DNA of 64,000 nt. Origin: Kineosporia sp. A_224 (GTDB lineage Bacteria; Actinomycetota; Actinomycetes; Actinomycetales; Kineosporiaceae). Both the position numbers and the translations under genes were made by a program. Below, one piece after another: positions 34,910-36,046 of this stretch. Below the pieces are notes generated by a model. The model was not told the origin of the DNA, did not search any database, and worked only from the letters and a program-made list of their open reading frames with translations. Numbering within the stretch: position 1 is the first letter of the stretch; every line of letters starts with the position of its first letter. The stretch spans positions 1 to 64,000 of the forward strand of contig NZ_MWLN01000184.1 in NCBI RefSeq assembly GCF_002198655.1. Reading direction: 5' to 3'.

Positions 34910-34963
34910 CCGGCGACCCCTCCAGAGCTGTCGACGAGACCCGTTGACCCAGGGTCGGGGTCA

Positions 34964-35010
34964 CCCTACTGTTCTGACTCGTAGAAATTCTACGAGTCAG
35001 GACAGTAGGG
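34964..35010. promoter_or_regulatory. 47-bp near-perfect palindrome between tetR and esterase
   Basis: Two 23-bp arms with one central base and a single mismatch; the core is ACTCGTAGAAATTCTACGAGT. It overlaps the -10 (TACTGT) of a plus-strand promoter whose -35 is TTGACC at 34944, and ends 9 bp before the esterase start. It is unusually AT-rich for this genome. Its length could hold two TetR dimers. Confidence 0.85.
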
Positions 35011-35019
35011 CAGGCCGTC

Positions 35020-35967
35020 ATGCCGCTGCACCACCGGCTCCTCGCCAAGGGGTTCCAGGTCCTCGCGGGCCGGGTCACCCGACCACCGGCGGCCTACGAC
35101 GCCTTCGCCGCGCACGTCGCGGCGCCGGCCCGGGTCGTCGTCCCGACGGACACGGGCCCGGTGACGGTCCACGTCTACCGTCCGCCGGCCGACGCCCCGG
35201 GCACGGACGCGGGCACGGACGCGGGCACGGACGGCGCTCCCCCGGTCTACGTGAACCTCCACGGCGGCGGGTTCGTCGCCCGGCACCCGGAGTTCGACGC
35301 GCACATCTGCCGGGTGCTCGCCGCCGAGACCGGTTGCGTCGTGGTGAACGTCGACTACGACGTGGCCCCGCAGCGGCCCTTCCCGGTCGCGGCGCAGCAG
35401 GCGTACGCGGTGGCCGCCTGGGCGGCGACGACCGGCGCCCGGGAGCACGGCTGGGACGGCGGCCGGCTCGCGGTCGGCGGCCAGAGCGCCGGCGGCAACC
35501 TGGCGGCCTCGGCCTGCCTGCGGGCGCGCGACGAGGGCGGCTTCGAGGCGGCGCTGCAGGTGCTCGTCTACCCGCCGCTCGACCTCGTGCAGGACCCCGG
35601 CGACAAGCACGCCCGGACGGCGAAGCCGCTCATCTCCCCCGGCCTGGCCCGGGTCTTCAACCACAGCTACGTCCCCGACCCCGCGCGGCTCGCGGACCCG
35701 CTGGTCTCGCCGCTGCACGCAGGCGACCTCGCCGGCCTGCCGCCGGCGCTCGTCGTCACCGCCGACCACGACCTGCTGCGCGACGAGGGCGACCGGTACG
35801 CCGAGCGGCTCGCGGCCGCCGGCGTCCCGGTGCGGCACCACGTCGCCCCCGGCGTCGACCACGCGTTCACCCACGTCGAGCCGACCGGCCCGACCCGGGA
35901 CTTCCTCGACGTCGTCGTGGCCGAGGTGGGCGCGGCCTGGGCCCGCACCGCCCGGCCCACCGCCTGA
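35020..35967 (+). CDS. Alpha/beta hydrolase, HSL-type esterase
   Basis: A 315-aa esterase/lipase of the hormone-sensitive lipase family. The oxyanion-hole motif is VNLHGGGF, the nucleophile elbow is GGQSAGGNLA, and the catalytic acid and His are expected in TADHDLLRDEGD and GVDHAFTHVEP. There is no signal peptide, so it is intracellular. A Gly-Thr-Asp-Ala tetrapeptide is repeated near residue 65 owing to a 12-bp tandem repeat. It is under the TetR palindrome. Substrate unknown; a xenobiotic or short-chain ester is likely. Confidence 0.92.
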   Translation: MPLHHRLLAKGFQVLAGRVTRPPAAYDAFAAHVAAPARVVVPTDTGPVTVHVYRPPADAPGTDAGTDAGTDGAPPVYVNLHGGGFVARHPEFDAHICRVLAAETGCVVVNVDYDVAPQRPFPVAAQQAYAVAAWAATTGAREHGWDGGRLAVGGQSAGGNLAASACLRARDEGGFEAALQVLVYPPLDLVQDPGDKHARTAKPLISPGLARVFNHSYVPDPARLADPLVSPLHAGDLAGLPPALVVTADHDLLRDEGDRYAERLAAAGVPVRHHVAPGVDHAFTHVEPTGPTRDFLDVVVAEVGAAWARTARPTA

Positions 35968-35998: not shown

Positions 35999-36046
35999 CC
36001 TCTGAGGTAGATCGCCGTCCATACGCACGGCGATCTACCTCAGAGG
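35999..36046. terminator. Bidirectional hairpin between convergent operons
   Basis: The arms of 20 bp (CCTCTGAGGTAGATCGCCGT with its exact complement) enclose an 8-base loop. The right arm contains the last codons and stop of the minus-strand ligase gene. It should end transcripts from both sides. Confidence 0.75.

Follow-up and report, generated by a model that had tools for sequence, protein, structure and literature searches.

A putative operator inside a 47-bp promoter palindrome of Kineosporia whose long arms are probably a lineage-specific addition

TetR operators are described as 15-bp palindromes (PMC3511530; PMC4482099). We asked what a palindrome of 47 bp might be doing in the 110-bp gap between an esterase gene and a divergent gene for a TetR-like regulator in Kineosporia sp. 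A_224, within a window (the whole stretch of DNA analysed) of 64,000 nucleotides. An inverted-repeat scan of the window placed the palindrome at 34964-35010, with 23-nt arms that are 96% complementary and lie 1 nt apart; 22 of the 23 arm positions are complementary, the single mismatch being T34973/G35001. Arms of 23 bases with one mismatch had been described in a first-pass annotation of this DNA, and the scan bears this out, as the sequence does its claim that the palindrome ends just ahead of the esterase gene: the last position, 35010, lies 9 nt upstream of the esterase ATG at 35020. Five first-order Markov copies of the window, 64 kb each, contained no palindrome scoring above 14, compared with 19 here, confirming that the palindrome is real and beyond chance. 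The features discussed below are collected in Table 1.

Table 1. Features of the regulator-esterase gap and the genes on either side of it (positions in the window)
Feature	Position	Strand	Basis or comparison
TetR-like regulator (candidate), divergent, 262 aa	34121-34909	-	ORF; alignment with relatives
-35 TTGACC of the predicted esterase promoter	34944-34949	+	Motif search; identical in sister
Left arm	34964-34986	+	Present in sister minus one T
-10 TACTGT of the predicted esterase promoter, inside left arm	34967-34972	+	Motif search; identical in sister
Core dyad TCGTAGAAATTCTACGA, 17 bp	34979-34995		Sister form TCGTAGAAATTCTATGA; putative operator overlapping the start site
Right arm	34988-35010	+	Versus sister (BLASTN alignment): five substitutions and a 3-nt indel
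Esterase, alpha/beta-hydrolase of the hormone-sensitive-lipase type, 315 aa, putative target gene	35020-35967	+	Abhydrolase_3, 1.3e-63

We scanned 693 kb of the same genome for palindromes with loops of up to 15 nt, this being the window plus 629,396 bp of extra stretches that form a non-random sample, some contigs having been chosen because earlier searches had named them. Eight palindromes reached a score of at least 19; a loop of 3 nt or less occurred solely in the one at 34964-35010, the other seven having loops of 4-8 nt. A 69-nt query covering the palindrome matched itself alone on both strands of its own genome (G000), and patterns of the core, allowed up to three mismatches, found no second site there, as expected of a local site. 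These results bear on the idea of a mobile or dispersed hairpin element, of the sort present at 35999-36046. The genome does hold two dispersed hairpin families, one of them with a copy 1 kb away, but neither family is single-copy as the palindrome under study is, and half of this palindrome stands at the same place in a sister genome. We rejected this explanation on copy number and give it almost no credence.

The two families are recorded here in their own right. The hairpin at 35999-36046, behind the esterase gene, consists of a perfect 20-nt inverted repeat around an 8-nt loop. It belongs to a family for which a search at E up to 1, with hits on both strands included, gave 46 matches in G000, 25 in G002 and 6 in G001, a few being weak. 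The sister lacks this hairpin at the corresponding position; another copy of the family, L039:11374-11421, does have a counterpart at its own position in the sister, with a changed stem. A literature search on Kineosporia and 'repetitive extragenic palindromic' found no paper. The second family has the form GAGTTACTAGCGCGTATGACCC-N7-reverse complement and is seen at L062:13185-13235, and also at L041:7071, L055:1 and L069:4004; a search at E up to 0.001, again with hits on both strands included, gave 73 matches in G000, 8 in G001 and 12 in G002, several of them at contig ends.

The divergent gene had been labelled tetR, a label that proved weaker than claimed. The regulator had no match in NCBIfam and none in Pfam, TetR_N (PF00440) included, even at E 10; removal of a 19-residue insertion still gave no Pfam match at E 1, nor did the sister's regulator at that threshold. 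Two relatives from other genomes, L049 and L050, match no TetR model. On the other side, a protein of the same genome (L006) shows 27% identity to the regulator over residues 82-232 (E 1.2e-5) and passes the TetR_N and TetR_C_6 cut-offs, and a profile of six relatives, L006 and L007 among them, matches TetR-family PDB chains, the best being NalD at 1.7e-8. An AlphaFold2 model built from two sequences was mostly helical and, with a mean pLDDT of 44.8, not usable. Given the missing Pfam match, the lack of a TetR model for L049 and L050 and the profile's matches to TetR structures, we call the regulator a TetR-like helix-turn-helix (HTH) protein, a candidate rather than a proven family member. 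It is 19 residues longer than four aligned relatives between the putative helices 2 and 3 of its HTH; the helix assignment and the recognition helix, ITTGAAYQVWPRQ, are our reading of the alignment. Read from the sequence, an SD-like GGAGGGG precedes its ATG.

The esterase also matches the LipP1 model (9.4e-68), yet falls under that model's curated cut-off. Inside its gene, 35198-35233 consists of three perfect 12-nt tandem repeats of CGGGCACGGACG, where the sister is shorter by 24 nt (8 residues). Among the surrounding genes, the neighbour from 33304 has NAD_binding_10 and NmrA matches; the ORF from 36034 had no match in the same domain search, and PADLOC returned no match.

Searching both strands of the window for TTGACN-N16-18-TANNNT gave a single match in all (expected, 0.17 per strand), and it lies here, with a 17-bp spacer. 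This predicted esterase promoter has 8 of the 12 sigma-70 consensus bases; the promoter tool requires 9 and listed no site here. For a promoter of the regulator, the right arm offers TACTGT on the minus strand, with a -35 position beyond the gap that was scanned; the two further TANNNT candidates on that strand have no TTGAC-like hexamer. From the match we infer an esterase start near 34977-34983. Because the -10 element lies within the left arm, the transcript expected from this start would contain the inner stem alone and not a 23-bp hairpin: leaders folded from starts at 34978, 34979 and 34980 form 8, 7 and 6 inner-stem pairs, respectively. The full hairpin requires a start further upstream, where the motif search offers no candidate.

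These predictions matter for a second explanation, that the palindrome acts mainly as RNA, with a hairpin in the esterase leader stabilizing the mRNA or hiding its ribosome-binding site. The folding energy of the 34950-35050 RNA is -57.8 kcal/mol (z -7.94), the right arm terminates in an SD-like AGGG, and EilR-regulated promoters are described in which a start-site operator may stabilize the mRNA through a 5' stem-loop (PMC6127294). We nevertheless consider a mainly RNA role improbable, as starts at 34978-34980 would transcribe just the few inner pairs given above, the left-end CCCT, the would-be pairing partner of the SD, falls outside the expected transcript, the plus strand of the window has no second promoter-like match of the same kind, and the sister lacks the long stem. 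The strong leader hairpin proposed in the first-pass annotation is thus reduced to its inner stem, the full 23-bp stem not being expected with the predicted -10 inside the left arm, and RNA-level control, if the predicted start is right, would be limited to that inner stem.

The long arms can be compared with a single sister sequence, contig NZ_MWLL01000087.1 of Kineosporia sp. R_H_3, to which G001 is identical here. Identity is 93% over 3,486 columns; the regulators are 94% identical, and ITTGAAYQVWPRQ is unchanged. The sister retains the promoter, the left arm and the centre of the palindrome, and the right arm is not kept. In the BLASTN alignment, 34930-34992 shows no substitutions and one missing T, and 35007 to the ATG shows no differences. 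Between 34930 and the ATG every substitution belongs to the right arm, and 6 of the 7 events lie within 23 of 90 bp (P ~0.0015 for this one alignment, assuming independent events); the placement of the right-arm gaps differs between MAFFT and BLASTN. Conservation on the left side says little by itself, because eight other substitution-free runs in the alignment equal or surpass the 62 columns of the one that begins at 34930. What remains of the palindrome in the sister is the 17-bp core TCGTAGAAATTCTAyGA, in which, as TCGTAGAAATTCTATGA, 7 of the 8 pairs are Watson-Crick and the eighth is G-T. The sister has five exact inner pairs (eight positions including the G-T) and, by reading, CCCT/AGGG at the outer ends. 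As the right arm differs from that of the sister, the long palindrome is lineage-specific.

The searches for an outgroup to polarize the two states were as follows. Strong matches to the regulator occurred in 2 of 13 family genomes, its own genome counted. Across 396 genomes of the order, with up to six candidates scored per genome, there were at least three further matches, at 30-38% identity. A scan of the genome collection with the regulator, of a kind that finds close relatives alone, gave no usable outgroup, and neither did the esterase among the 13 family genomes, where the match in the third genome of the genus was just 50% identical.

Other palindromes of the same genome served as controls. 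In the stretches scanned, 44 scored at least 14; 21 of these could be aligned to the sister, and 23 had no sister alignment. Fifteen of the 21 hold a score of at least 11 in the sister, and the palindrome at 34964-35010 drops from 19 to 5. Also not kept are the hairpin at 35999 (20 to 0) and L040:17130 (17 to 7). L059:3953 scored 6 in the sister, though 13 of its outer pairs are kept by eye; L063:6662 fell below 11 where the sister sequence contains N; and L070:5786 did so in a 68.7% alignment that is probably to a different place. Comparable palindromes are thus mostly kept, and the one studied here is among the few that are not. The single-copy palindrome L074:18561 has surroundings without a match in G001 or G002.

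One control speaks to a third explanation, in which all 47 bp function as a long operator for a pair of dimers or a larger oligomer, in the manner of QacR, and the sister no longer has it. The same genome contains a 53-bp palindrome, L063:5268-5320, which lies at the 5' end of an ORF that is clearly TetR (TetR_N, 1.4e-14) and is kept in the sister. Each of its arms has a 15-bp dyad, ACGNAACNGTTNCGT, a value that 136 of 5000 shuffles reach, so L063:5268-5320 looks like two inverted operators. (The ORF as listed starts at a TTG just before the palindrome, and the real start may lie after it; beyond this ORF is one that we read as MFS-like.) A long operator at the esterase promoter would also fit its 23-bp arms, near-perfect and 1 nt apart, in the sole palindrome of such strength with a loop of 3 nt or less in the 693 kb, and the QacR tetramer on its 28-bp palindrome (PMC4482099), and no outgroup polarizes the ancestral state. 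However, the sister has a 94% identical regulator and no outer arms, so that the long dyad has not been kept along with the regulator, and the arms here, unlike those of L063, have no internal dyad above chance (2372 of 5000 left-arm shuffles reach the best value of the left arm). For that reason the site looks like one operator to which arms were added, and two full operators in inverted orientation are not supported. We regard a long operator as unlikely, and the double-dimer binding suggested in the first-pass annotation finds no support in either the sister or the arms.

We lean towards a reading in which the core is the operator of the divergent TetR-like regulator and the long arms are a lineage-specific product of template switching. 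That a regulator-binding site lies in this divergent promoter is the best reading and a likely one, the site being putative: the gap is short and divergent, and the core fits an operator, a dyad in the range of ~15-28 bp that stands in the gap beside the predicted -10 and overlaps promoter elements. To this extent the proposal of a regulator site in the tetR-esterase promoter stands, without its double-dimer part. In streptomycetes, all five of the tested TetR-family regulators with a gap of <200 bp are described as repressing the divergent gene (PMC3511530). A regulator dimer at 34979-34995 would cover the region just downstream of the -10 as well as the esterase start site, and would block the esterase promoter by TetR-type repression, possibly together with the promoter of the regulator's own gene; release would come from a ligand, which may be an ester or the product of one. 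Repression would not depend on the outer arms, and the mRNA would begin with the inner stem-loop, which may stabilize it.

Among known systems, this arrangement resembles TetR/tetO-type divergent operators in having a divergent regulator and target, a short gap and a short dyad over promoter elements. It differs in that outer arms stretch the dyad to 47 bp, the regulator is too divergent for Pfam TetR_N, and the site is predicted. As with the operator of QacR, described as 28 bp and bound by a tetramer (PMC4482099), a dyad longer than 15 bp stands at a repressor-controlled promoter, but the dyad here is longer still, and a sister whose regulator is almost identical has not kept the outer part of it. 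With EilR the shared feature is a palindrome at the start site, serving as operator and able to give the mRNA a 5' stem-loop (PMC6127294), whereas the EilR consensus operator is given there as 24 bp and the start-site placement belongs to engineered promoters.

The long arms themselves most simply, and probably, arose as a reverse-complement copy of the arm that carries the -10, through quasipalindrome template switching. In Escherichia coli, template switches are described as turning quasipalindromes into more perfect inverted repeats (PMC7202029), and template switching at quasipalindromes has been proposed to create RNA hairpins (PMC8794818). The differences cluster as one reverse-complement copy predicts, with six right-arm events in the BLASTN alignment plus one point change for the mismatch, and, read pair by pair, each right-arm substitution raises the complementarity of the window's arm to the left arm. 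Replication would have switched template at a short quasipalindrome and overwritten the right flank with the reverse complement of the left arm. Against this reading, the sister's outer right flank matches the complement of the left arm at chance level (1030 of 10000 shuffles and 276 of 10629 other 15-mers reach it), so the starting quasipalindrome would have been short. Copying from left to right is suggested by the -10 in the left arm and by the better SD, GGAGGG, that we read in the sister's right flank compared with GTAGGG in the window; loss of the right arm in the sister is the alternative. The likeness to the E. coli mutations lies in a cluster of changes by which one arm becomes the reverse complement of its partner (PMC7202029); the case here differs in being a difference between two species, its direction not polarized by an outgroup. 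A bolder version, which we put forward tentatively as a possibility, is that template switching in one lineage reshaped a promoter-operator that was in use. In a single event, copying the -10 arm across the operator would have turned a 17-bp dyad into the 47-bp palindrome, weakened the ribosome-binding site and added a 5' mRNA stem, with a joint change in repression and expression level as the outcome.

We therefore see at this locus what is probably an ordinary regulatory site with an instructive origin. If so, an over-long, near-perfect promoter palindrome need not imply an unusual binding mode, and comparison with one relative tells a conventional operator core apart from arms that mutation produced. 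The two Kineosporia promoters, one with and one without the long arms, would form a natural pair for testing the effects of perfect arms on repression and on the mRNA.
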